Below, piece after piece: positions 1 through 62,449 of a DNA stretch of 64,000 nucleotides; the stretch's first letter is position 1; every line of letters begins with the position of its first letter. Position numbers and translations under genes: made by a program. The DNA comes from Homarus americanus. Lineage: Eukaryota > Arthropoda > Malacostraca > Decapoda > Nephropidae. The DNA is taken from contig NW_024748870.1 in the NCBI RefSeq assembly GCF_018991925.1, positions 638,187-702,186 of the forward strand, given 5' to 3'. Below the pieces are notes generated by a model. The model was not told the origin of the DNA, did not search any database, and was given only the letters and a program-made list of their open reading frames with translations.

Positions 1-169
1 ATGTATATAATATATATGTATATATAATAATAATAATAATAAGAGAAACAGATTATAGAAAAAGATAGTGACTTAGTTAGGGGCGGGACGGGGCGGGGGA
101 ACATAAAGTGAATGTATACAAATTAATGTTTACAAATGGCTGGCAGGGGCTGGTCCCTTGCCCTTCTGT

Positions 170-212
170 ATGAGGTCACGTAGGTCATGTGGTACAGTAT
201 CTCGTTCACTGT
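170..212. repeat. minisatellite, left part (split by LINE)
   Basis: This piece has the pattern 'catgtggtacagtat ctcgttcactgtcat'. The same roughly 34-bp unit resumes at 931, on the far side of the LINE copy at 215-930. The array therefore predates the LINE. Confidence 0.7.
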
Positions 213-214
213 CA

Positions 215-930
215 TAAGAACATAAGAACATAAGAATAGAGGAAACTGCAGCGGGCCTATTAGCCCATACTGGGTAGTCCCATTTACACCCAACCCCTAT
301 TGCTCATATAAGCATCCAACCTATGTTTGAAGCTATCCAGCTTATTCAAGTAATTTGTCTAATTTACAACCATTTTTACGAGTTCGCTCCTGGTTGGATA
401 GTTTGAGTACCTTTGTAATGTCCCCTTTGTTTAGCCCTGACTTCCATTTATGCACCTCTATCATGTCTCCCCTCGCTCTACGTCTCTCGAGGGAGTGCAA
501 ATTAAGATGCTTTAACCTGTCTCTGTACTCAAGGTTCCTAATGCCCGGGATTAGTTTTGTCATTCTCCTCTGGATTCTTTCCAAGGATTCTATATCCAAT
601 GTGTAATGCGGTAATACGGTGACCAGAACTGAACTGTGTAATCCAGGTGAGGTCTCACAAGAGCAAGATATAATCTTAAGATGACCTCGCTAGTCTTGTA
701 ACTAACACTCCTTTGTATGAACCCAAGTACTTTATTAGCCTTGTTACGAGCAAAAACACATTGTTTACTTGCCTTAAGATTCCTACTTAGCATTACTCCT
801 AAATCTCTCTCGCAGTCGGATTTCACAATGGCATCGTTGTTCATCTGGTAACTGGTTTCCCTGTTTACCTCTCCAATACTGAGTACTTTACATTTGTCCA
901 CATTGAATTTCATCTGCCATTTTTTAGACC
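215..930 (-). mobile_element. 5'-truncated CR1-like LINE (RT C-terminal part)
   Basis: The minus strand encodes the end of a non-LTR reverse transcriptase in two pieces, 913-590 and 599-342, separated by a frameshift. The first piece has the thumb-region signature RLYLALVRPHLDY. The second has IQRRMTKLIPGIRN followed by a basic region, the usual C-terminus of CR1/L2/Rex-like LINEs. The 3' end, at low coordinates, finishes in three copies of the octamer TTCTTATG (CATAAGAA on the plus strand, about 212-236). Octamer tails are typical of CR1. The insertion lies inside a minisatellite and is flanked by CTCGTTCACTgTCA (201-214) and CTCGTTCACTaTCA (931-944), which look like a 14-bp target duplication, although the host array is itself repetitive. 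Endonuclease and most of RT are absent, as expected for 5' truncation. It is related to the longer copy at 23.9-27.6 kb. Confidence 0.85.
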
Positions 931-1080
931 CTCGTTCACTATCAAGTGGTGCTACAGTACCTAGTTCACTGTCATGTGGCGGTACAGTACATCATTCACT
1001 GTCATGTGGCGATACAGTACCTCGGTCACTGTGATGTGGACGTACAGTACCTCATTCACCGCCCTGTTGTGTTCTGGTAC
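931..1080. repeat. minisatellite, right part, ~34-bp unit
   Basis: Four to five degenerate units of the form 'ttcactgtcatgtggcg(g/a)tacagtacctcg' run from 931 to about 1080 and then fade into unique sequence. They match the piece at 170-212. The ORF crossing them (974-1279) is a by-product of the array. Confidence 0.75.
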
Positions 1081-1763
1081 AGTGCCACACAGGTCTGACC
1101 CTCGACCGTTCCCAAACTTGCCAGCGTGGACTACTTCAAGCCTCTGGTGGTCTGCAAGAGTTGTTGGGTCCCAGGGCGGTTATCACTGTTTACTGTTGAG
1201 TTACTGGCTTAAACACTGTTCAACGCTGACTACACTCCTTTCAGAAACGGAATTGTCACCTTTGGCAGGAATTTACTGATATCCTGGTGGGGAGGAGGAC
1301 AAGTGTGTGTGTGTGTGTGTTTGTAGTGCCAGCCATTCCTCGTTTTTCATGGGTCACCTAATCGGCATCGTATCATCACCAGTGTTTCCTTGTTGTCGTG
1401 ATGCCAGCAACAACAGGGCACCAGTCAACACAGAGATAGGGAAAAATGTCGTACAGTAAAGGAGCCCAAAATAAATAGGAGCCCAGAGTAAATAGATGAG
1501 GAAAGTAGTTAAGTTACTAAGATTATGTGAATAGATAAATAGATCAAATTATTTGTCATTTGGCATATTGTAAATAGATAGTTTAAGTAGATAAGACTAG
1601 ACTAGTTAGGTGATCGGCCATTAAGATTATGTGTGGTTGTTTTCGGATAATAATTACAGTATATAAAGACAATTGGTGTAACAAATGTATTTTCTTGTTA
1701 TTGTAAATTATATAGATAATTAATTAATATGGGAAAAAAATCTGGTTATTTGCTAGCGCTGAA
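1080..1763. other. no gene recognised
   Basis: No coding similarity was recognised. The stretch contains a short (GT)n at about 1303-1322 and becomes AT-rich after 1450. Confidence 0.5.
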
Positions 1764-1930
1764 GTTAGGTTAGGTTAGGTTAACTTGGGTTAGGTTAGGT
1801 TATAGTGGATTAGTTTGTGTTAGGTTATATTAAGTTAGATTAGGTTTCGTTAGGTCACGTTAGTTAAAAAGGTTAGGTTTGGTTAGGTAAGGTCACGTTT
1901 GGTTAGGTTAGGTTAGGTTAAAAAAAAAAA
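1764..1930 (+). repeat. degenerate interstitial (TTAGG)n telomere-type repeat
   Basis: Runs of GGTTA GGTTA recur from about 1764 to 1918, interrupted by variants such as GGTTATAGT, GGTTTCGT and GGTCACGT, and end in an A-run. TTAGG is the arthropod telomere motif. Here it is degenerate and internal, so it is not a chromosome end. Confidence 0.85.
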
Positions 1931-1975
1931 ACTTCAAATGCTCTATTAAATCCCTTTTAATTGACTCCGGAAAAT

Positions 1976-2270
1976 ACCTGCTAACACCTGTGAAAGACCT
2001 GTTAACACCAGGTCATAGTACACACCTGTATCTCTCTCTGCCTGACACCTGTGAAAGATCTGTTAACACCAGGCCATATTACACACCTGTATCTCTCTAT
2101 CTAACACCTGTGAAAGACCTGTTAACACCAGGTCATAGTACACACCTGTATCTCTCTCTGCCTGACACCTGTGAAAGATCTGTTAACACCAGGCCATATT
2201 ACACACCTGTATCTCTCTAACACCTGTGAAAGACCTGTTAACACCAGGTCATATTACACACCTGTATCTC
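1976..2270 (+). repeat. 60-bp tandem repeat, five copies, alternating variants
   Basis: Five units of about 60 bp contain 'aacacctgtgaaaga(c/t)ctgttaacaccagg'. Two variants, 'aggtcatagta' and 'aggccatatta', alternate, giving a 120-bp higher-order period. The last unit is shortened by about 5 bp at its junction. The ORF running through it is an artefact. Confidence 0.9.
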
Positions 2271-2357
2271 TCAATGGTTGGTCGAGCATTACGCGGGAGT
2301 TCGTTGACCAGCCAGTTGATCCTACCTTTGAGACGGATTGATTAAGGTGAGTAGTAT

Positions 2358-2402
<45 letters not shown>

Positions 2403-2421
2403 ACAGTATCTATCTATCTAC

Positions 2422-2463
<42 letters not shown>

Positions 2464-2464
2464 G

Positions 2465-2526
<62 letters not shown>

Positions 2527-2529
2527 CAT

Positions 2530-2595
<66 letters not shown>

Positions 2596-2612
2596 CTCTC
2601 TCTCTTTCTATA
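2358..2612. repeat. compound microsatellite (CT)n-(CTAT)n-(CT)n
   Basis: (CT)n at 2358-2402 is followed by (TATC)n with a single TGTC interruption to about 2530. A second (TC)n follows to about 2612. It is non-coding. Confidence 0.97.
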
Positions 2613-2649
2613 ACTTCCTACAATACACTAGGCAACAAATTAAAAATAA

Positions 2650-4441
2650 AACACAGTTTCGTTACATGGTTCAAATCAGCTTCCTTTTCGTAGTTTTGAG
2701 GCGCTCATTTCAAATCTGGCAATAAAAATTCTCTAGCACGTACAGTTTATTTGTTATACAAATAATTAAATCTTACAAATACAATAACTGAAAAATACTA
2801 TTTTTCCTGTTATTCCTGTTACCTTTTCCACGTTATCACTAAAATTCAATAAAGAATGAAAACACTCATGAGAAGAAACAAAAAGTATTAAATTTCACAC
2901 TGTAGGTCATTCGTTATTTTATTTCATCCTTATATGTGTTGTATTATCCTCCGATTGTAATAGTCCCCCATCATGACAGGATCCCATCTACCCTGGTACC
3001 TTTCCTCCATACGTCTAATGTCCTGATGAAATCGCTCTCCATGTTCATCACTAATCGCCCCAGATTCTCAGGAAAAAGTTCAAGTGTGAGGGTAGGAGGG
3101 ACATCCTGCATCCTTAGTTTTTGTAGTTTTTTAAGGGTTCCTCTTCAAGTTGGCAATGGTTTTCTTCCTTCTTGTTTCCAAGAAACCCTTTGACTACAGA
3201 TGTAAAGCATTTCCATGCAGCTAGCTCATTTTCCTTCAGTTTGTTTTCAAAGTCGTCATCACGAAGTAACTTTCTTATCTGTGGGCCAACAAAGATACCC
3301 TCTTTGACTTTAGCATCACTGAACTATGGGAATTTTCCCCTCAAGTACACGAACCAATCACCTTGTTTGTCCACGGCCTTCACAAAATTCTTCATTAGTC
3401 CCAGCTTGATGTGTAAAGGAGGTAGAAGTACATTGTTTGGGTCTACCAAGGGAATATATTTAACGTTGCTTTTTCCTGGAACAAACTCTTCTCTCTTTGG
3501 CCAGTCCTTTGTGTTGTAGTGTTTTTCTGTTGCTCTGCTGTCCCATAAACACAGATAAAAGCAATATTTCGTGAACCCTCTTTGAAGGCCGAGTAGAAGG
3601 GCTATAACCTACAAATCGCCACAGATCTGTCATCTGTATTCCTTGTATTTAATAGCGGTCACTATTTTCTCCATACTATCATATGTTTAGTTCAAACCTA
3701 CAGAATGCGCCACTGGAACTGATGGCTTCTGGTTCCCATTATGCAATAATACCGCTTTCAAACTAAACTTGGAGGAATCTATGAAAAGCCGCCATTCCTT
3801 TGGGTCATGTTTTTCTCCCAGCTCTTACATCAGTCCATCTACATCAGTACACACACAGAGGGAATCCTGCATACTGTACAATGAAGATAATGTAATATTT
3901 ATTTTCCTAAAAACATAAATTCTTGTCTGTTTCGCTAGCAAGTTCCATTCCTGCAGTCTTGATGCTAAAAGTTCCGCCTGCTGTTTTGACAGACAGAGAT
4001 CACGTAAAGATCATTAAGTTCACTTTGTTCTGTAAGATGTGGTTCATTGGAAGTTTGGTCAATGAAAGGAAGATCATAGGATGATTCTGGGATTTCTTTC
4101 TCAATTTCCTCATCCGAAGTTAAGAGCTCTTCCAAATTAGCCGGTGGTGTAGAGGGAGGTCTTCTCCATGAGGAACGTGCCTTATTGCCGAAAATACATT
4201 TTGATGTTCCATTTGGTGAATTGACACAGCCTCGGCGTTGTATTCTCTCCATTCTCCAGTTCAGTATTGCTAACCTTGCATTTAATATATCCATACCAAC
4301 ACAAGTACGTATCTTATATTCCTACACTACATATATACATCATAAAAATGTTACGTGACTGACATTATTTATCGCCATATTTGAAATCAGCCCAAAATCA
4401 ATAAAGTGCAGCATATTTGATCCATGTTACCGAACCCATGT
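2650..4441 (-). mobile_element. TIR-flanked DNA element, orphan arthropod family A
   Basis: The segment at about 2653-2744 and the reverse complement of about 4350-4440 align along roughly 90 bp as imperfect terminal inverted repeats. Shared blocks include GTTACATGG/GTAACATGG, TCAAAT, ATTTCAAAT-TGGC-ATAAA and CACGTAA. Between them lies one decayed minus-strand reading frame (separate entry). The 1.8-kb size, TIRs and single ORF point to a cut-and-paste DNA transposon relic. I could not fix the outermost bases or a target duplication, and I do not assign a superfamily. Confidence 0.65.
2936..4294 (-). pseudogene. orphan multi-copy arthropod protein, transposon-associated
   Basis: The minus strand encodes fragments of a family I know from many arthropod genomes as 'uncharacterized protein'. 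In order: an acidic N-terminal piece (4294-3965, LTSDEEIEKE...LTEQSELNDL); HDPKEWRLFIDSSK (about 3810-3770); KYKEYRWQICGDL (about 3650-3620); LLPPLHIKLGLMKNFVKA (about 3430-3380); DAKVKEGIFVGPQIRKLL (about 3320-3270); FLGNKKE (about 3180); and DEHGERFHQDI...RYQGRWDP (about 3055-2980). At least one in-frame stop (after GKFP) and several frame changes disable it. The usual N-terminal Cys-rich domain is absent. The biochemical role is unknown. The flanking TIRs suggest a transposase. Confidence 0.8.
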
Positions 4442-11559: not shown

Positions 11560-12304
11560 ACTTTAAAGTCCAACAAAAAATATTACCCTTCTTCAACAAA
11601 TCAGTAAGGGGTAGCGCCAACTCGGCAAAATTACAAATATATCTCCGGTAATAACCCACACAACCCAAAAATCTGAGGACTTGTCGTTTGTTACATGGAA
11701 CAGGTATCTAATAAATAGTGTCACACCTTGCTGTGGGAGGAACAAGTTTCCAACCCAATTACATGTCCCAGATACAAAAGTTGAGCACAAACAAATTCTG
11801 ACTTAGCAAAGTTTATAACAAGTCATACAATTCTAACTCAGTGAAGAGAGCGTCTAGCTGACATAAATGGTCTGACCAAGTGTCAGAAAAAATTACAACA
11901 TCATCTAAATATACTACACAACCAGGCCAATTGGCTGTGACTTGTGACATCAGCCTTTGAAAGGTGGCAGGGGCATTGCAAAGCCCGAAAGGCATAACAT
12001 TAAATTTATAGGTCTTACCTAATGTCACAAAACTGGAGATGTCCTTAGCACGACGGGTCAATGGTACTTGCCAAAACCCTCGAAGGCAATCAATCTTAGA
12101 GAGGAACTTGGCGTTCCCGATTGCTTCGATGCAGTCGTCGACTCTTGGTAGAGGGAAGCTGTCCTTGCTGGTGACGGCGTTGACCTTGCGGAAGTCGATG
12201 CAGAATCGAAGAGTGCCGTCCTTCTGTACTAGAGTGACTGGTGAGCACCACTCGCTGATAGGGAGCCTGCTTGATAGGCTTAGCAGGACCAACGTCAATA
12301 TCAT
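11560..12304 (-). pseudogene. gypsy reverse transcriptase (with start of connection)
   Basis: The frame 12304-11813 encodes CSPVTLVQKDGTLRFCIDFRK, SKIDCLRGFWQVPL, MPFGLCNAPATFQR and the catalytic YLDD, which are RT blocks 1-5 of Ty3/gypsy. Downstream, MGCVGYYRRYICNFAELALPL (11668 onward) is the conserved segment that follows the RT domain. Frameshifts separate the pieces. Only about 60 bp lie between this and the downstream LTR, so RNase H has been deleted. Confidence 0.9.
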
Positions 12305-12609
12305 GCACTACGGCAGTGGTACAGCCAGGACTGTCTTGGAAGACAGGAGGATGTTCTAGGATGGCGGCCAGCACGTCAGCTCTCTGGTGTCCCGGTAGAC
12401 GCTGTAGTTTCTCTTGCAACTCCACGGAGTTGGACTGCCAAACCCTGACTGATGACAGGGCGAGTGGACTTGCCCCTTCTTTTCCCTCTTCTTTCTCACC
12501 GTCTACCAAGAAACTGTCAACGGCACACATGGGAACTGGATCATCAGCAACATTTGGGGTTGCTGGACGTGTATGGTACAGCTTGATGGTGTTGACGTGA
12601 CATAAGCGC

Positions 12610-13480
12610 TGTAGTCGGCGCCTGTCAGGGGTAGAGATAATATAATTCGTAGGGCTTACCTTCTTCACCACTCTATATGGCCCACTGAACTTCGTATGGA
12701 GCGGCTGTCCATGTCTCGGCAAGAGAATGAGTACTTTATCTCCTATCTGGAACTCTGGGTCTGGCATGCTTGTCGTACCATGTCTTGGTCTTGGACTTCG
12801 ACTGCTGTAAGTGGTCTGTGGCAAGGCTCCAACAACTTGGAAGCTTCTCTCTAACATCTACTAAACTTAATACGCTAATGTTCTCTTCACTACTACCTAA
12901 CAATGAACTATTCCCAACTCTGTTAGGGCTTCCTTGAAAACTTTTCCTACAAAATATGAAGCACAGTCCGTTTGAACACGGTACGGCAACCCAAAGCGAC
13001 TAAACAGGTCAAGCAAACATTTAACAAGGGCCTTAGCAGTAACTTTCCTAAGAGGTACAGCATGCAAGTACCTAGTGGAGGTATCAATGACTGTAAATAA
13101 ATATTCAAACCCACTAGAAGTTTTAGGCAGAGGGCATACAATGTCACACTGTACTGTTGTAAAGGGCTCAGGTACGTGAGGTACTCTTACAAGTGAAAAA
13201 GGTGGAATAGCCTGATTGGCTTTGCCTACCTTTTGACATAAATGACAGTAATTACAATATTTAGTGACATCTCTCCTCATACCTGGCCAATAGAACTTTC
13301 TGGCCAGCCTGATGAACGTCTTTCGGACACCTTAATGTCCAGAAAAGCGACCGTCATGGGCCAGAGCTAGAACATGTTGTCTGTAAGTGTGTGGGAGAAC
13401 TATTTGAGTGACAGACGCCCAGTCCGCGTCTTCCTCTGACATAGTCGGTGGGAGCCAGCGGCGGCACAAAACACCGTCTT
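12610..13480 (-). pseudogene. gypsy integrase, upstream of RT
   Basis: The N-terminal HHCC zinc finger begins in the preceding frame (HTYRQHVLALAHD...GH, about 13410-13335), has an in-frame stop near 13333, and continues in 13280-12897 with YCNYCHLCQ. The catalytic core follows with CDIVCPLP (first Asp) and the TDCASYF region (second Asp; the usual Gly/Gln after it is changed). The GPY/F-type C-terminal domain (KVLILLP...TKFSGPYRVVKKVS...YIISTPDRRR) is at 12770-12600. The integrase is complete in domain content but disabled. Its place before RT is the notable feature. Confidence 0.88.
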
Positions 13481-20882: not shown

Positions 20883-20891
20883 ATAATGTAT
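20883..20891. repeat. 9-bp target duplication, left
   Basis: ATAATGTAT, identical to 23923-23931. Confidence 0.9.
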
Positions 20892-23800
20892 TAGGGTGTG
20901 TCATAGGAGGGAAGACTAGCTAAAACTAATGGCCCATCACTGTTTTGGTAGATTTTAGTGTATATAAACAGAAAATAATTTCAGTTTCAACATTTTGCAA
21001 CCTTTTGCTAGGTAAATTTTAGCGTGAAATTTACCGAAAATCTAACGTACAGCTGCATTAGTGCATTACAATTAAATAGTGAACATTGCTTTCTGACTTC
21101 ATTCTTTAACAACCCAACTAACAATATTTTTTCTGTTTCAGATTCTGATGCATTTATAAGTTGATAATATTTGTGATGGCTGCTTGTGTCAGGACGAGGA
21201 ACCCAAAATCCAGCCATCTCAGTCACTATCTTGGGTCTGGGAGAGAGCTCCTGAAGTCGGAGTTGCCTACATTGAGAGATGCTTTGAGATACGGTGTTTT
21301 AATCAGGCAAATCAGTGAAAAGAACCAAAGAACTTACACAAACAAAGACATTGCCAGTGATATGACCAAAGCTGTCTTGGCACAGTATTGACTTGGTTAA
21401 TGCTCAGTCTAAGCCTCCAGTCATAACAAGTCAGAAGAAGATTAGAAGTGAGAGACTGCTAGCCAGTTGGGGAAAGGCAAGATATCTCTTGGGAGAGGAA
21501 AACTTGCAGTTAAGGACAGCTTTGCTGCCAACTGGACCAGTTATTTGACATTATACCACTTGCAAGTGCCCAATTGTCTTCTGTCCTGAGTTTGATGCAA
21601 GATCGTGACTGTAAATCCGAGGCCATCTCTGTATTTGCAAGCGTGAACTGAAGATTCCTGTGATCGAACTGGCATTTGTCAAACATACAGAGAGAGAAGA
21701 CTGGCAGTATAGGGGCTCTCATGATTTCTAGCCAAGATATTCCGGAGTCCAAGAGACAGGAGGCTGCCGCAGAGAGACAGAAGAGGAGAAGAGTTGCCGA
21801 GGAAAAGAGACTTGAGAAGGCCCAGGGTGAGGTAAAAAAGGCCGATGATTGGAGTCAAGCTGATTCAGAGTTTAATGATTTCCCCATGGCTGATCCGAGT
21901 GCTGACCAGGAGAATGGTGACTTTGTCCCTAACCCAGAAAATAATGATTCCAAACCTTCCAGGCATAAGATTCGAAATAGGAAAGATATCCTGAGCATAG
22001 CTCTGGCCAGCATGCGACACCACACTGGTCTCAGAGAAACTGCAGAGATAGCAACAGCTGCCTGGATTGACGGTGGTTTGATAACACCTGATGATGTTCA
22101 CCTGGTGATAGATCATAACAAAGTAAGGAGAGCTCAGGAGAAACTTGTCAGTAACCTAGAAGAGGAGTTTGATAAGGGGATAAGAGAAAATGGAATCAAT
22201 TGTTTGTTCTTTGATGGGAGAAGGATGACACTAAAGTGTTCATGAAAGTTGGAGATTCTGACAAGTTGTTCCCTGCCATGGTGAAGGAGGAACACTACAC
22301 CTGCTGCAGTGAACCAGGAGGGAAGTATTTGTGGCATTTCACTCCAGAGAAAGATGACATCAGGAAACCAGCTGAGATAGTGGCAGATAACATTGTGAAC
22401 TGGCTCAGAGAGAGGAACGTAGACCAGACCCTGCAGGCCATTGGAGGGGACAGCACCAACACGAACACAGGGTGGCAAGGGGGGGGTCATACAGTGGATA
22501 GAGCGGAAGATTGGGAGGAAGCTGGTCTGGATTGTTTGTGACCTCCACACCAACGAGTTGCCACTCAGACATCTGATCCAGGAGCTGGATGGCAAGACTC
22601 TTTCAAACAACAGATGGTCTGGTCCTCTTGGCAAGATGCTGGACTCTGCCACTGAGTTAGAAATAAATCCGAGCTTTGAAAAAATCACAGTTGGCCCTCC
22701 ACTCGTTGAGCTTGCACATACTGTCATTGACGACCTGAGTACTGACCAGTACTATGGTTACATGATTTGCAGTGCCATCAAAACTGGGGTCATGCCTGAT
22801 AGACTTGCTTACCTGCAGATAGGTCCAGTCTCACATTCTAGGTGGCTCACAACGGCTCTCAGGTTCTGCAGAATTTGGGTCGCTCATCATAAACTGAAAG
22901 GGAACCAGCTTCACAACCTGAGACTTATTGTCCAATTCATCGTGAGTGTCTACTTGCCAAATTGGTTCAACACCAAGGTCAAGTCATCGTTCTCCGAAGG
23001 TCCGAGGCATGTTCTCTTCCAGCTTGAGCTCCTGAGGAGTCAGCCAAGGAAGGTTGTTCAGATTGTGGAGCAGACTGTGAGGAGATCTTCCTGGTATGCT
23101 CATCCCGAGGCAGTTCTGCAGACAATGCTCTGCAGTAAGGATGAGGAGAGAGAAGAGTGGCAGTCAAAAAGATCTTGGATATGAGACTTATGAGAGGATC
23201 TGGGCATGACGAATCAGTTGGTGACGATTCCTTCAGGGTCAGGAAGACTCCTGAAGTCAATCTAGGTGACAAGACCCTCACTGATCTCATAGATCTGGAT
23301 AACATCCAGGCTGGCAGTGAGCCCCCTCTTACCTGCAGCCTCACCAATGTTCAAGTCAGAGCTTTCCTGGACAACCCCATGCATGTCCCTGCCTGGCCCT
23401 CGCACACCCAGAGTATAGAGCGTTGTGTACAGCAAGTGAGCGAGGCCAGCAGTCACGTGTACAGCCAGGAGAGGAGGGAAGGCTACATCCGAGCTCAAGT
23501 GGTCAGCAGGGAGGTGATGAGTAGAAACAGAAGCAAGAAAGACATGTTCTCTATGGTGTGCAGCAACACCGGGTCGTAGTAGTAAAACCGGTTTTTGTAT
23601 TTGATGATTTTGTTTTCTAAAGGAATATTAAATTTAATAAATGTGTCAAGATCATTCGTTTCACTATTTTGGATCATTTTCATCCTAATAAATTAACCTG
23701 ATACATTTACTTTACTTTAAATAAGCTATTTAGTGGTGTTGGTAAAAGGGTGGGAATACTGAATTTTCATAAGATTTCAAGTTAAAATTTACCTAGCAAA

Positions 23801-23922
23801 AAATGAAAACTTTTCAAATCTGAAGATATCACATGATTCTGCACATAGAACTACATCATTAATACCATGGGCCGATTTTTCAAACTCAAATAAAAAAATT
23901 CGCCTCCGTATGACACACCCTA
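20892..23922 (+). mobile_element. complete TIR DNA transposon, orphan arthropod family B
   Basis: The ends are perfect 14-bp inverted repeats TAGGGTGTGTCATA (20892-20905 and 23909-23922), and the similarity continues as GGAGG after a 1-bp offset. A second perfect inverted pair, TTTTGCTAGGTAAATTTTA, lies inside at 21003-21021 and 23783-23801. The element is flanked by a 9-bp direct repeat, ATAATGTAT. It carries one plus-strand gene (next entry). TAG start and 8-9 bp duplication resemble hAT or Mutator-like elements, but the protein shows no motif I can assign to either. Element boundaries are very well supported. Confidence 0.93.
21161..23579 (+). pseudogene. orphan transposase-like gene of family B
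   Basis: The gene lies wholly between the TIRs and belongs to a multi-copy arthropod family usually left uncharacterised. Its start in 21161-21391 is weakly supported. A charged coiled-coil-like region (KRQEAAAERQKRRRVAEEKRLEKAQ) and an acidic linker lie in 21676-22245. A core follows with GDSTNTNTGW, CDLHTNELPLRHLI, GPLGKMLD, SHSRWLTTALR and YAHPEAVLQTML (22236-23184). A C-terminal block has HTQSIERCVQQVSEAS (23157-23579). Four frameshifts and one or more stops break it, yet most of the length is readable, so the copy is only moderately old. His/Asp/Glu/Arg-Trp conservation would fit an RNase H-like transposase core, but I cannot place the catalytic triad. Function by context is transposition. 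Confidence 0.8.
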
Positions 23923-23931
23923 ATAATGTAT
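23923..23931. repeat. 9-bp target duplication, right
   Basis: ATAATGTAT, identical to 20883-20891. Confidence 0.9.
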
Positions 23932-24346: not shown

Positions 24347-25430
24347 TCAAGATATAAAACCTAATACTCTGTTTGCCTTATTTCGAACGTTAACGCACCG
24401 TCTTCTAGGGCAAAGGTCCGGGCTTACAAGTACCCTTACGTCTCTTTCATAAGTCGACTTCTCTAGGTTGATGTTGTTGAGGCTGTATACATTGACAGTA
24501 TTTGTTCTTCCAATATTAAGTACGCTGCACTTGCTGGTGTTGAAGTTCACTTGCCATTTGTCTGACCACTCCTGCAGTTTATTTAAATCCTCCTGTAGAG
24601 AATTTGCATCCTGCCCTGAATTTATCTGCCACCCTATTTTGGTGTCATCAACAAACTTGCTTATGTCACTGCTGATCCCATTATCTAGATCGTTTATGTA
24701 GATTATGAACAAGAGTGGGCCCTGCTCTGACCCCTAGGGAACCCCACTAGTTACACAGCCCACTCAGATTTAAAACCATCTACGCTGACCCTCTGTGTTC
24801 TATCTGTGAGCCATGATTTTATCCAATTTAAAACTTTCCCCTCGATACCATGAGCCTTAACTTTTCTCAGAAGCCTCTGATTCAGTACTCTGTCAAATGC
24901 TTTGCTAAAGTCTAAGCAAATAACATCGTAATTTTCGTCATTATCTACTAACTCATAGACTTTCCTAAAAACGTCAGCAGAATTGCTAGACAAGATTTTC
25001 CCTTTGTAAATGCATGTTGAGAGTTGTAGATTAATTTGTTTATCTCTAAATGCGCTCGGATGCTATTTGCTATAAATGATTCAAGAAATTTCCCCACTAC
25101 TGACATCAAACTAATCGGCCGGAAATTTGTCGCTGATGCTCTGTCTCCCTTTTCGAATATGGTTACTACATTTGCCTGTTTCCACAAGTCTGGCACAACC
25201 CCCGTGTCGAATGATTTTGTAAATAAATTTACGAGGGGTCCGCTAATATGTTCCTTGCACTCTTTCAAAACTCAAGGGGAAATTTCATCCGGCCCTGGGA
25301 ATTTTGTCTTCTTTAATTTATTTATCTTCTTAAGAACATCCTCTTTTTTAATAGTGATATTCTTTAGCTTCTCTTCTTCATTTCCCCTAAATATCAGTTC
25401 CACCTCTGGCATTTCCTTGTGAATTTCTTC
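24347..25430 (-). pseudogene. CR1-like reverse transcriptase
   Basis: Conserved RT blocks appear in order. KFPGPDEISP is near 25310 and FRPISLMSVVGKFLE near 25110. YDVICLDFSKAFDRV (first catalytic Asp) is near 24920-24880. The GSVLGP-equivalent region is broken near 24735. LFIIYINDL then FVDDTK (the F/Y-x-DD box, with Val in the variable position) lies near 24700-24640. RDVRVLVSPDL...RNKANRVLGF is the thumb. Frameshifts lie near 25000, 24740 and 24340. Confidence 0.88.
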
Positions 25431-31754: not shown

Positions 31755-32780
31755 AGTAAGGGAAGTACAGTGAAGGTAGGGAAGTACAATGAAGAGAGGA
31801 AAGTACAGTGAAGTTAGGGAAGCATAGTGAAGGCATAGAAGCACAGTGAAGGTAGGGAAGCACAATGATGGTAAAAAAGTACATTGAAGTTTGGGAATTA
31901 CAGTGAGGATAGGAAAGTACAGCGAAGGTAGGGAAGCATAGTGAAGACATAGAAGCACGGCGAGGGTAGGGAAGTACAATGATGGTAAATTAGTGAAGTA
32001 AAGGTAGGGAAGTACAGCGAAGGTAGGCAAGTACAGTGAAGATAGGGAAGTACAGCGAAGGTAGGCAAGTACAGTGAAGGTAGGGAAGCACAATGATGGT
32101 AAAAAAGTAAAGTGAAGATAGGGAAGTACAGCCAAGGTAGGGAAGTACAGCGAAGGTAAGGAAGTACAGTGAAGGTAGGGAAGCATAGTGAAGGTATACA
32201 AGTACAGTGGAAGCACAATGATGGTAGAGAAGTACAGTGAAGATAGGGAAGTACAGCGAAGGTAAGCAAGTACAGTGAAGGTAGGGAAGCACAATGATGG
32301 TAAAAAAGTAAATTGAAGGTATGGAAGTACAGCGAAGGTAGGGAAGTACAGCGAAGGTAAGCAAGTACAGTGAAAATAGGGTAGCATAGTGAAGGTATAC
32401 AAGTAGAGTGGAGGTAGGGAAGCACAATGATGGTAAAGAAGTAAAGTGAAGGTAGGGAAGCACAATAATGGTAAAGAAGTACAGTGAAGGTAGGGAAGCA
32501 CAATGATGGTAAAGAAGTACAGTGAAGGTAAGGAAGCACAATGATGGTAAAGAAGTACAGTGAAGGCTGGGAAGTACAGCGAAAGTAAGGAAGCATAGTG
32601 AAGGTATGGAAGTACAGTGAAGGCAGGGAAGCATAGTGAAGGTATGGAAGTACAGTGAAGTTAGGAAAGCTTAAAGCACAGTGGAGTTATGGAAGCGCAA
32701 TGATGGTAAAGAAGCATAGTGAAGGCTGGGAAGCACAATGAAGGTTGCAAAGCACAATGAAGCTAGAAGCTCAGTGAACA
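31755..32780 (+). repeat. ~1-kb minisatellite, 19-bp unit
   Basis: About 50 units close to AAGTACAGTGAAGGTAGGG, with variant types such as AAGCACAATGATGGTAAAG and AAGTACAGCGAAGGTAGGC. The period is not a multiple of three and stops are rare on the minus strand, so all three minus frames are open (32634-31654). Those ORFs are artefacts. Confidence 0.95.
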
Positions 32781-47751: not shown

Positions 47752-50700
47752 AGTCATTATTCCGGCCAGACGTTTTTTGCCTACAAGAGACGCTACTTGC
47801 GGGTCAGGACGACCCACCTGTATTTGACAACTACACGTCCTACAGGGGGACAACCTAAGGGGGGTAGCCCTATATATTAGGAGTGAATTCGCTCAACAAA
47901 GAGTCAACCTGAGCGTGAACCTGCAGGCTGTGGCGTGCAGAGTCAAGTTTCGGTCTGACTATGTGGCCGTCTGCTCACTATACTGTCCTCCGGGCGGGCT
48001 CATTGCCGCGGGTGAGCTTGAGGAGCTATTTAACCAACTACCAGGAAAAAAATGATCCTCGGAGACCTCAATGCTCACCATTTGCGGTGGGGCAGTGTCC
48101 GGAATGACGGGAGGGGAGAGCAGGTGGCTGCAACTATACTCAACTCCAACTTGTCTCTTCTGAATGACGGTAGTGCGACTCGAGTGGACGAACAAATTGG
48201 CTCAGCGACAGCTGTAGATCTCTCTATAGTTGATGCTTCCTTGCTATTAGACTGTAAATTTTCTACATACGACGACTCCCTGGGTAGCGACCATTTTCCG
48301 ATCTGCATTTCTTATGAGTGTGGCGCCCCAACGGCTACTCCCGAGGTGCGCTACAACCTTAGGAAAGCAGACTGGAGGGCCTACTCAGGAGCCGTTCGTA
48401 TAGACACCATTGGAGAAGACATCAACACCAAAATCTCACACATAGAACAAGCTATAATACACGCAGCAGATTTAACAATTCCTAAGACTTCTGCAACAAC
48501 CCACAGGCCTGGAGTTCCATGGTGGACACCAGACTGCCGACGAGTGGTTTGTGAGCGCAATAGGCGATGCCGTTTATTCAACAGAGCTCCATCTATTGAA
48601 AACCTCATAGAATATAAAAAAGCTAGAGCTAAGGCTAGGGAGGTTGTCAGGGAGTGCAAGAGAGAGTCTTGGCGGGTATTCGTCTCCACTATTAACAAGG
48701 ATACCCCTTCCTCTGATGTATGGTCGGCTATAAACCGGGTCAGATCAAACAGAGGAATGACCTTTATCCCACAGGTGAGTAATGGAGGGCGGTTTCTCGA
48801 CGAACCCCAGGCCATTGCCAACGCCCTAGGCCAGAAGTTCGCAGATGCCAGTAGCTCCACCAATCATGATCCACGCTTCGGCGTGTTCCGTGATCGTGCC
48901 GAGCTCGTGCATCTCGACTTCGAGAACGGGGACGAACAGGACTACAACCGAGCATTTTCCCCAGAGGAACTTTCTTTTGCTTTAAAAAAGGGCAAGGGCT
49001 CTACTCCTGGACCTGACGGTATACGATACGAGATGATTAAGCACTTTGACCAGGGAAACCTGGACAAATTGCTAGAAGTGTTCAATGAGATCTGGACGTC
49101 CAGAACGTTTCCAAACTTTTGGCACTTTGCCCATGTCGTACCGATCCCGAAGAGGGACAAATGCCCTACTAACACCAACTCATTCCGTCCGATTTCGCTC
49201 ACAAACTGTCTGTGTAAGGTCATGGAACGTATGATAAAACGTAGGCTAATGTATTTTTTAGAAAGTAACAACTTATTGAGTGATCGACAGTGTGGTTTCC
49301 GCCAAGGTAGAAGCACACTAGATCATTTAATAAGTCTTGAAACTGACATCTCAAAGGCGCTTTGCAGTAAAGAAACACTAATTGCAGTATTCCTAGACAT
49401 AGAAAAAGCTTTCGACATGACATGGCGGACTGGCCTCATGATGAAGCTCCAGGCCTTGGGTCTGAGAGGTAATTTGCCAATTTTCATTAGAAATTTTTTG
49501 CAAGACAGAACTTTTTCCGTTAAATTAAAAGATAACGTAAAGTCAGACACATTTGTCCTAGAAAACGGAGTTCCACAAGGCAGCCTTTTGGGCACAATAT
49601 TATTTCTCATAATGATTAATTATTTCCTATCACCAGCACCCAGCTTAAGTGACCTCAAATTCTCCTTGTTTGCTGACGACTGCGCAATCTGGCGCTCCTA
49701 TCGGGTCGAGAGACGATCTGCACAAAGGGTGCAAGCCGGCCTAAAAGCCGCTGAAGAGTGGGCAATACAATGGGGATTTAGGTTTTCAGTTGAGAAGACA
49801 GTAGGAGTAGTCTTCACTAAGAAACGTAACATAAATAATCCAGTATTATAATTAAATGATACTCCTATTAAATTTCAGACTTCAGTAAAATTTCTCGGTG
49901 TTTATTTTGACCGGAAATTAACGTGGAAGAACCACATTAACGAGCTTGAAAGTAGATGTCTTAAAGTCACAAACATCCTGAAAGTTTTATCAGGTACTAC
50001 ATGGGGAGCCGATAGGAAATCTTTATTAATGGTGTATAAGACCCTGAGCAGATCGAAACTTGACTATGGATGCCAGTTGTATGCTTCTGCATGCGACACC
50101 ACACTCGCAAAGCTAACCAAAATACAGAACCGATGCCTTCGTCTATGTCTGGGTGCCTACAGGTGTACACGTATAGAGAGGCTAGAGGTGGAGGCCCATG
50201 TCCCTCCACTCCACATCAGGAGGGACATGTTGACGCTAAGGTACGGATTGAGTGCGGCTAGGAGGCGCAGCAGAGGCCACCCAGGTTGGTGTGCTGTTGC
50301 TAAATCCCGTTTTCTGCAGTTGCGTAGGTCCCCGTCCTCGGTTATCCGTCTCCAGACCTTGTGCCAGGGTGCTGGTATCCACTTCGAAGACGTTGATAGA
50401 TATGTTCCACTGTTGTGTCCGCCATGGGAGAACCCCAACTTCCATGTGGAAACATCGTGGCTTCCAGGAGCGAAGAATGACCTACATCCCGAGCTCCTTA
50501 AACAACTTTTCTATCAATTTCTAGAAGGATATAGCGCCTATACTCAAGTGTACACAGACGGGTCCAGAACTGACGACAGCGTTGGAGCCGGTCTCTAGAG
50601 CAGAGACGGGGAGTGGAGCTCCCGCCTGCCGCGGCATACAACCATATTCACTGCAGAGATGTTTGCAATAAGTAGAGCCATTGACATTGCAAAAACAAGC

Positions 50701-57154: not shown

Positions 57155-58640
57155 TTACAAGTTATTGATAATTTTTATAATGGTTGGGACTGGGCTGCTC
57201 TTATAGCAATCAGTTCGTGCACGTATGGGCTGCATGCTGTTGTGGTGTCGAACAGCAATTCTCGGGCTAGGGATCTCAGGTGGTAGTACGAGCCGGTGTC
57301 GAGGATGGTGCAGAAGCTTCTTACTAAATTTGCAGATGAGGTCGTGGTGATGGTTAGTGAGAGTCGAAAGTGTCAGTGTGTTGAGCGCTTCTTGATATGT
57401 GGAGTAGGAAGGGGAGAGAATAATCTTGCATGCCCTCTTTTGCACTTTTTCTAGGTGTTTACGTTGTGTGTCATTTAGGGAGGAAGACCAGGTAGGGGAG
57501 GCATAGGTGAGCTTGGGAAGTATGAATGTTGAGAAAACACTGAGGAGCTCGGGTGCAGGAACTCCGAGGGACTTGAGTCGGCGGAGGAGGTGGAGACGGA
57601 AACTGGAGGATTTGACAACTTCACTGACGTGTGGTTTCCAATTTAGTTTGTTTTCTATGGTGACGCCGAGGAACTTCGTGGAATCTACAACCTGGAGTGT
57701 GTTCGGACCTAAATTAATGGAAGGGGGTGGGACAATGGCGGAGGAGAGGTTGATGTGCATAACCATGGTCTTGGTATGGTTGATGGTGACGTGGTTGTTG
57801 GTGGCCCAGTTTTGGAGACTGTTCAATAAATCCTGACGGGCGGTATAGTCGGGAGCAGAATTGTTGACGCTGATCCCAATGGTGGAGTCGTCGACATATT
57901 TCCAGCGAGCGGGGATTTCTCTTAGGGCATCATTGATAAGCATAAGGAAGCAGAGTGGTCCCATCTTGGTTCCTTGGGGGACACCACAGGTGAGTGACTG
58001 AAAGGTGGAGACAGCCCCTCGGAAGCGTACAGCTTGGAGTCGGTCATTGAGGAAGTCTGTAAGCCATGGTATAAGACTTCTCCGAAGCCCGAGGTCAATA
58101 GCTTTGTTGATGATTATATTGTGGTCGACTAGGTCGAATGCTTTAGTGAAATCAATGAAGGCGACAGCTACAGACGTTTTTCGTTTCTCGAGATGGCGGT
58201 ATATGTAATCGAGAAAGCTGACAAGACAGTGAGTTGTGGAGGAAGTTTTCATATTGCCAAATTGCTAAGGGTCTACGACTCCTGCAATATCAGCATAAGC
58301 CCAGTCGAACCCAAAACTTTCACAGATTAGGCTGGGTATTGGGGTGATTGCAATAGGTCGTAGCTGATTTAAGGATTGTGGGCTGGTTGACTTGGACACT
58401 GGTGATACATAAGAGGTCTTCCAGTCAGCTGGGCATCTGGCTTGACTGAGCGAAGCATTGATGATGGAGCATAGGGGCTTAGCAAGCTCCGGGGAGAACT
58501 CCTTGAAGAGTTTCATTGGAAAGTCAATGTGGGTGGTTGAGCGTTTTAACTTTAGTTTGTCCAGACGTTTTGCTACTTCAAATTCTTCTACTAAGTCAGT
58601 GGGAAGGGGGGCTGGTAAGTAAGCAGGGAGAGTGGTTGTG
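57155..58640 (-). pseudogene. LINE reverse transcriptase, 5'-truncated, one stop
   Basis: The minus frame begins near 58630 (VAKRLDKLKLKRSTTHI). It includes LRPIAITPIPSLICESF, has a single in-frame TAG at 58265-58267, and runs on to 57155. RT blocks: VAFIDFTKAFDLVDH (Asp), CGVPQGTKMGPLCFLMLIND, catalytic KYVDDST. The thumb reads STKFLGVTIENKLNWKPHV and EKVQKRACKIIL. It has no RNase H and ends in a basic tail. Jockey/CR1-related by these motifs. No endonuclease remains. It was close to functional before truncation. Confidence 0.88.
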
Positions 58641-60999: not shown

Positions 61000-62217
61000 A
61001 CCTCGAGCAGTTAGAAATTCCAGACGTAACTATTATACAAATAAGCTCCAGTCAGCATCAGGCGACAGTAAAAAAAACTGGAATGTCATAAATTCTATTC
61101 AGAACAGGAACACTCATCCTTCGGCCCCCCACTCAGCTTTTATGATAAATGTTTCAGTTGTAAAGGAACCCTCCCCCATTGCCAACCACTTCAATTAATA
61201 TTTTATTAATGTTGGCAAAAATCTTGCAGAGAGCATCCCTGATCACTATGAGGAATTTAGAGCCTACCTGCAAAACAGACAGCAAAATGAGCTGTTCTTA
61301 TCCCCTATCACAGCAGATGAATTACTGGCCATCATAAAAATGTCCAAAGATGCAGCAGCAGGCGAAGACAATGTAACAATGAGCATCATTAAGAAAGTAG
61401 CCCACTTGTTACTATCTGTTCACCTACAAATTTGTAACTCCTCCTTCACTAGTGGTGTCTTTCCGGATAAACTGAAAATTGCTAAAGTTCACCCAGCATA
61501 TAAAAAATCTGGGGACAAAGGTCTCTTCAAGAATTCCCGCCCCCTATCAGTCCTCCCAGCCTTGAGTAAGATACTGGAAAAGCTAGCATGTAATAGACTA
61601 AATTCCTTCTGCAGTGCCAATAACATCTTTTCAGACTCCCAGTTTGGATTTAGAGCTAGAAGGTCGACTGAGAGTGCTCTGCTATCCTTATTAATGACAT
61701 CTTAAATTCCTTTGATGGCAGTCAGTTCACAGTCGGTATATTCTTAGACCTCTCTAAGGCCTTCGATACTGTCGACCATACCATCCTCCTTTCAAAGCTT
61801 GAACATTACGGCGTCAGGGGCCTATCCCACAATTGGTTTACTTCATATCTGTCCAGGAGGATGCAGTATGTCTGCTATAATAATCACCAATCTGACTCCT
61901 CACCAATCTTGCATAGCGTCCACCAAGGTTCCAATCTCGGTCCAGTACTGTTTTTGTTGTACATAAACGACATAGTCCACGCCATCACACTCATAAAATA
62001 CAACTTATTTGCAGACGATAGTAATCTCTATGCCAGCAACTCAGACCTCCATTCCTTGATGAGAACTATGAACACTGAATTAACTAAAGTCAGGATCTGG
62101 TTAATACTTAATAAACTGACCTTAAACCTTGAGAAAACCCACGATACGATCTTTCACAGAAGGAAAAACTTACCCCCAGACTTGGATCCCCTGTACCTTG
62201 GTAATACAGTCCTCAAA
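61000..62217 (+). pseudogene. LINE reverse transcriptase, 3'-truncated (jockey/CR1-like)
   Basis: 61340-61705 has SKDAAAGEDNVTMSIIKK, KIAKVHPAYKKSGDKGLFKNSRPLSVLPALSKILEKL and SQFGFRARRST. After a frameshift, VGIFLDLSKAFDTVDH (Asp) lies near 61735. 61861-62214 has SVHQGSNLGPVLFLLYINDI, catalytic FADDS and LTLNLEKTH. Coding similarity ends abruptly at GNTVLK (62214), where a perfect hairpin and GACA-type repeat begin. A LINE missing its 3' end is unusual and implies a later rearrangement or insertion. Confidence 0.85.
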
Positions 62218-62252
62218 CTGTTCTGGGCAGCCGTTTCGGCTGCCCAGAACAG
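62218..62252. repeat. perfect 16-bp hairpin at LINE breakpoint
   Basis: CTGTTCTGGGCAGCCG, loop TTT, then its exact reverse complement CGGCTGCCCAGAACAG. No mismatches. Confidence 0.95.
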
Positions 62253-62300
62253 AGAGACAAACAGAAAGACAGACGGACAGACGACAGACAGACAGTCCTA
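62253..62300. repeat. imperfect (GACA)n
   Basis: AGACAAACAGAAAGACAGACGGACAGACG-type repeat following the hairpin. Confidence 0.8.
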
Positions 62301-62449
62301 TAGTATATTAGATACTCACTTGGTCGGCCGACACTACATGAAGTGACTGTTACTTGGGGGTGGGGTGATCACAAGTGTAGAGCACTTGGCCCCATAAGGG
62401 CGAGAGTCTCAATGCCACCCCTGCCAAAGTAGGCCTATCGACACTGGCA

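Follow-up and report, generated by a model that had tools for sequence, protein, structure and literature searches.

What kind of genetic element occupies positions 20883-23931 of a 64,000 nucleotide stretch of the genome of the lobster Homarus americanus (RefSeq assembly GCF_018991925.1, contig NW_024748870.1, positions 638,187 to 702,186 of the forward strand; this whole stretch is hereafter the window), and does it belong to a group that is already known? An earlier note, made from the letters alone, had placed here a gene of an orphan arthropod protein family, lying within the ends of a cut-and-paste transposon whose superfamily could not be named. Our analyses indicate that the element is quite probably a degenerate copy of a DNA transposon of the cut-and-paste kind, with a hAT-like mode of action and most likely of the published hATm group. 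The evidence for insertion, for the nature of the encoded protein and for this assignment is presented below.

The element is 3,031 base pairs (bp) long (window 20892-23922) and is flanked by two identical copies of a 9 bp target site duplication, ATAATGTAT, located at positions 20883-20891 on the left and 23923-23931 on the right; paralogous empty sites in two other loci (L002 and L011) hold a single copy of it with one substitution. The element begins with a 14 bp terminal inverted repeat (TIR), TAGGGTGTGTCATA (20892-20905, forward strand), which is identical or nearly so in the 24 of 30 retrieved copies that have both termini, and its reverse complement is present at the other end (23909-23922, reverse strand). 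Further inside there is a perfect 19 bp subterminal inverted repeat, TTTTGCTAGGTAAATTTTA, with its left arm at 21003-21021 (forward strand) and its right arm at 23783-23801 (reverse strand), which is a candidate binding site for the transposase; none of 100 dinucleotide shuffles yielded such a repeat. The termini, the internal repeat and the duplication on each side are thus all present as the earlier note had described them, and the gene containing SHSRWLTTALR and HTQSIERCVQ is situated between the termini.

Other copies of the element were sought in the lobster assembly (2.2 Gb in 34,269 contigs) by a DNA search in which the best 40 of 2,015 first-look candidates were scored, yielding at least 41 matches, of which 30 loci were retrieved. 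Excluding the window copy itself, these copies are 94.6-97.7% identical to it by blastn, and in 28 of the 30 loci the alignment takes in at least positions 5-3014 of the query of 3,035 bases. Both termini are present in 24 of the 30, and 19 of these 24 exhibit an exact anchored duplication of 8 or 9 bp. The 9 bp length on which that note relied is that of the window copy and is found in 10 of the 24 copies; it is not, however, constant, as 9 of the 24 have 8 bp (seven independent sites; L023, L025 and L027 have a common flank and were counted as one site). Among 552 wrongly paired flanks used as a control, agreement over 9 bp did not occur and agreement over 8 bp was seen in 6 pairs, which by our reading are pairings within the common flank of L023, L025 and L027.

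For the 19 copies with a duplication, the two flanks were also joined and searched against the retrieved DNA, and junction-spanning matches were obtained for 7 of the 19 joined flanks, representing five independent sites. These empty sites hold the duplicated bases once, some of them differing at one or a few bases, and they correspond both to 9 bp duplications (L001, L011 and L017) and to 8 bp duplications (L018 and L023, both inside tandem repeats). Because empty sites back each of the two lengths, both look real. In a count of 19 sites, of which 11 have 9 bp and 8 have 8 bp, T is the second base of the target and a purine the third in all 19, and the third-from-last base is a pyrimidine and the last-but-one is A in 18 of 19 each, which gives the palindromic target preference nTRnn(n)YAn, with the preference for T and A holding at both lengths. 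The copies stop at the TIRs and empty sites exist, which rules out that a host gene has merely been copied. At the level of sequence, these comparisons establish that insertion is precise, with joining staggered by 8 or 9 bp and a preferred target, and that copies sharing these ends have spread; the termini, duplications, many copies and empty sites together identify a cut-and-paste TIR transposon, as the earlier note had proposed.

Some of the loci have unusual surroundings. The members of two pairs (L012/L033 and L015/L031) seem to have one flank in common and a different one on the other side, without a duplication, and in L015/L031 the element is in the opposite orientation relative to the common flank; this suggests recombination between copies or assembly joins. 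Five loci (L023, L025, L026, L027 and L028) hold a copy within a tandem satellite, which is flanked by empty satellite units and has seemingly been multiplied together with the satellite on small contigs, and L018 holds an insertion in an array of short-period tandem repeats, on either side of which lie many empty units.

The transposase gene of the window copy (21176-23579, forward strand) is broken, its coding stretch being split by frame changes into several frames, while intact relatives are about 800 amino acids (aa) long. The nearest such relative with an uninterrupted frame, P0156 (801 aa), has 89-92% identity to the lobster gene parts P0001 and P0002. A run of eight G (22479-22486, forward strand) shifts the second half of the gene out of frame with the first, and this run is common to all 30 of the window-like copies retrieved, for which reason an intron or a programmed frameshift at this place was considered. 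This explanation was set aside, since a 30-mer of the gene with seven G has 968 exact occurrences in the genome, the seven-G copy L034 is open over 718 codons and P0156 is uninterrupted. Set against these 968 occurrences, the eight-G copies appear as a frameshifted subfamily which has presumably moved in trans. As the gene of the window copy is broken, its lineage was presumably mobilised by enzyme from intact relatives; purifying selection within the burst was not seen, the singletons being evenly spread over codon positions 1, 2 and 3 (237, 264 and 261, respectively). Ten seven-G loci were retrieved, and eight of them were extended at one end (L032 and L036 were left out); both termini are present in 4 of these 8, with one duplication of 8 bp and one of 9 bp.

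Relatives of the protein were sought at E values up to 1e-3, and 217 were identified in a first search and at least 190 in a second, which covered the best 7,994 candidates by common words. Those named here, drawn from the best 120 listed per search, are from crustaceans (viz. the crabs Scylla and Chionoecetes and the copepod Caligus) and from non-arthropods (viz. the leech Helobdella, Hydra, the hagfish Myxine, the fish Aldrovandia and Chaenocephalus, and the frog Mantella), and a restriction of the family to arthropods can no longer be maintained. The named relatives are labelled hypothetical or uncharacterized, consistent with the remark that the family is usually left uncharacterised; two of them (P0078 and P0122) carry an additional label from another domain. 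In the short match P0078 (Helobdella robusta), a piece of the transposase family is followed in the last 53 residues by a helix-turn-helix (HTH) of P-element type (PF12017), and this gene model is likely to be a fusion of two mobile elements. No relatives were found in viral contigs in two scans with family queries, and a sequence search of the PDB produced chance-level matches alone, as did NCBIfam for six proteins. Pfam was searched with 24 and a further 53 members at E values up to 1 (the second list covering 25 of 29 families) and with 8 queries at E values up to 10; no transposase model was conspicuous among the listed matches, the 24 members gave one weak match to Transposase IS4 (E 0.0062), and the listed matches of the further 53 were weak and scattered.

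The conserved residues of the family are more informative. In an alignment (A2) of 97 family proteins, chosen by hand from 205 (P0003-P0207), two aspartates and a glutamate stand out as putative catalytic residues, all encoded on the forward strand and numbered here after P0156. The first aspartate (D347, in FFDGR; codon 22213-22215) is present in 95 of 96 sequences and lies in a model strand (343-358), the second (D426, in GGDST; codon 22449-22451) is present in 96 of 97 and follows a model strand (422-425), and the glutamate (E749, in HTQSIER; codon 23418-23420) is present in 93 of 94 and lies in a model helix (746-761). Between the second aspartate and the glutamate are a CxxH motif (C455 and H458, 22537-22548; C in 95 and H in 97 of 97) and an RW pair (R556 and W557, 22840-22845; R in 94 of 96 and W in 96 of 97). 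The order D, D, CxxH, RW, E is the same in lobster and other hATs, as seen in translated loci and in a hAT alignment (A7) of 34 of 120 proteins and four loci, likewise chosen by hand (loci L050-L055 and L062-L069 were left out, those translated being fragments). The second aspartate and the glutamate are 323 residues apart in the element family and 346 in the hAT alignment. In Hermes, where the catalytic residues are D180, D248 and E572, this distance is 324. It is reported to be 107 in ISCth4, in which the insertion comprises residues 261-325 (PMC7780238), and 228 in the P element (PMC8230255). The CxxH motif is described as important for catalysis in Hermes and Kat1, and W319 of Hermes as important for hairpin formation, its counterpart in Kat1 not being essential (PMC4763223). 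The RW pair of the lobster family is a candidate counterpart of the TRW of hATs and of Hermes W319, the corresponding residues of A7 being R315 and W316. The N-terminal part of the protein contains a cluster C-x-C ... C-x-C (C129, C131, C153 and C155, in 73-74 of 74 sequences) with a spacing unlike that of BED.

The predicted model of the protein exhibits an RNase H-like DDE core split by a large helical insertion, similar to Hermes, and in fold searches the hAT transposase Hermes was the top match by a clear margin, with the N-terminal 300 residues barely covered. The RNase H-like DDE/D core which the earlier note had suggested looking for is thus supported by a predicted fold with conserved D, D and E. 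Hermes (PDB 4d1q, 6dww, 8sjd and 8edg) and the lobster family are alike in this core with its large helical insertion, in CxxH, in a W within the insertion and in their preference for T and A in the target, which for Hermes is reported as nTnnnnAn (PMC10368747). They differ in that the identity over the structural alignment is about 10%, and in that Hermes makes 8 bp duplications, has a BED zinc finger and is 612 aa long (PMC10368747), compared with about 800 aa in the lobster family. The canonical lobster hATs (L056-L061; ZBED4-like and related) have the same order of D, D, CxxH, RW and E; unlike the element family, they were found through PF05699, and the weak profile alignment between the two is limited to the stretch of the second D and CxxH.

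The assignment to hATm is based on the ends and the duplications. Zhang et al. (2018, PMC6004678) describe hATm elements with termini 5'-TAGGGTG...CACCCTA-3' and duplications of 8 or 9 bp, found across a wide range of organisms and placed inside hAT by the authors' phylogeny, with more than 74 of them reportedly in Repbase. Termini of 5'-TAGGGTG and CACCCTA-3' are carried by the window-like copies and by a second lobster family (see below), and duplications of 8 or 9 bp are found in window-like, seven-G and second-family copies. Judged by this published description, membership in hATm is likely. A difference is that hATm-6 is reported to have PF05699 and example TIRs of 417 and 575 bp (PMC6004678), while the lobster family has TIRs of 14 bp and PF05699 is absent from its listed matches. 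Among the 11 papers listed by a literature search with the letters of the terminal sequence, none was on transposons by title. In view of the fold matches and of the published hATm description, the view of the element as an orphan of unnameable superfamily was dropped: it is very likely that the superfamily can be named, and with the group already in print the element represents a confirmation and not a new kind. A known assignment in repeat databases, which the earlier note had listed among the findings that would count against it, probably exists, as indicated by the same published description (PMC6004678).

The second lobster family was found with a distant relative, P0182, by scoring the best 58 of 12,008 first-look candidates. 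It gave at least 58 matches, and among those listed 57 of 58 are stop-free and 57 of 58 have an 804-codon open frame. Six copies were retrieved (L070-L075, on contigs C4429, C30361, C28494, C6078, C24902 and C1845, respectively); all six start with TAGGGTGTGTCA, and five are 99.56-99.78% identical to L070 across about 3.2 kb. Both termini are present in 5 of the 6; the duplication measures 8 bp in two of these, in one case consisting almost wholly of G, and 9 bp in a third. The protein is 52.7% identical to P0156; with proteins half alike, the two families therefore have ends and duplication lengths in common. This hATm-like second family looks young and is probably recently or still active.

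Several observations weigh against placing the element within hAT. The TM-scores obtained with Foldseek are modest (0.46 and 0.41 on target length), profile-profile comparison with lobster and other hATs yields weak similarity (P 0.34, 0.017 and 0.038), and no PF05699, zf-BED or other hAT Pfam model was found among the listed matches of the 77 members and 8 queries. Duplications of 9 bp are unusual in classical hAT, and some copies with both termini have no exact duplication. This applies to 5 of the 24 window-like copies (in one of which, L024, the two 9 bp repeats differ at one position), to two of the four from seven-G loci and to two of the five from the second family. After trimming, the profile comparison gave P 0.033 with a score of 27.4, compared with a maximum of 24.6 among 60 column shuffles and with 18.6 when the profile was reversed, and the profile alignments cover the second D, and in three of four also CxxH, in the hAT register. 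This weak similarity supports kinship with hAT and is by itself no proof.

A broader reading, which we regard as rather unlikely, is that of a deep-branching lineage alongside the classical hATs (an own superfamily or the base of hATm, represented in cnidarians, annelids, crustaceans and vertebrates) whose transpososome would tolerate 8 and 9 bp around a palindromic TR...YA and whose second lobster family may still be jumping. It is distinctly unlikely that the element represents a separate superfamily, sister to hAT, with TAGGG-type ends, a helical insertion, a Cys-rich N-terminal region of its own and 8 or 9 bp spacing. The lack of a detectable Pfam relation among the listed matches, the faint profile similarity, the presence of the C-x-C ... 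C-x-C cluster without a recognised BED finger and the 9 bp duplications in 10 of 19 duplicated copies would agree with such a proposal. However, the ends and 8 or 9 bp duplications fit hATm, which lies inside hAT by its authors' phylogeny (PMC6004678), Hermes is clearly the best fold match, and the profile alignment, weak as it is, sets the second D and CxxH in the hAT register.

Classification by duplication length alone is unsafe because the reported lengths overlap (hAT 5-8, Merlin 8-9 and MULE 8-9 bp; PMC4482050, PMC5225508), and Mutator-like elements (MULEs) and IS256-related elements resemble the lobster family in having CxxH and an RNase H core that bears a helical insertion. A placement among them is highly improbable: ISCth4 (IS256 family) ranks second in Foldseek and Aedes MULEs are reported with 8-9 bp duplications (PMC5225508), but ISCth4 falls below Hermes in Z and aligned residues, its insertion is much shorter and its second D to E distance is far from that of the lobster family (PMC7780238), the TIRs of 14 bp contrast with more than 100 bp in 12 of 14 Aedes MULE families (PMC5225508), and no MULE or IS256 transposase model of Pfam is among the listed matches. 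A relative of the P element is hardly credible: the P element transposase does rank high in the fold searches (E 1.4e-3 and 4.5e-4, among the top matches) and a P-type HTH is carried by one short match, P0078, but the fold match is weaker than that of Hermes.

For the favoured hAT-like transposon, of hATm type, the following course of transposition may be envisaged. A transposase of about 800 aa would bind the TIRs, and perhaps also the 19 bp subterminal repeats, and pair both ends; its DDE site, aided by the histidine of CxxH, would cut the ends, and by analogy with hAT enzymes the flanking DNA would probably be left with hairpins. The ends would be joined at target points 8 or 9 bp apart, repair of the gaps giving rise to the duplication, and broken copies such as that in the window would be served in trans by enzyme from intact relatives.

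Elsewhere in the window, open reading frames at 11816-13331, 24350-24733 and 57158-58264 (reverse strand) and at 48034-49848 and 61672-62343 (forward strand) look like Gypsy-type and long interspersed nuclear element (LINE) type reverse transcriptase or pol pieces. A long tandem array is present at 31759-32778, with a period of 19 bp and about 48 copies over 31759-32669.

These results point to a likely function for the hypothetical or uncharacterized proteins of crabs, a copepod, a leech, Hydra, hagfish, fish and a frog. For hATm, of which knowledge is said to remain "relatively limited" (PMC6004678), they provide evidence from a predicted fold and from catalytic residues, and they bring to light a young-looking lobster family with open frames.
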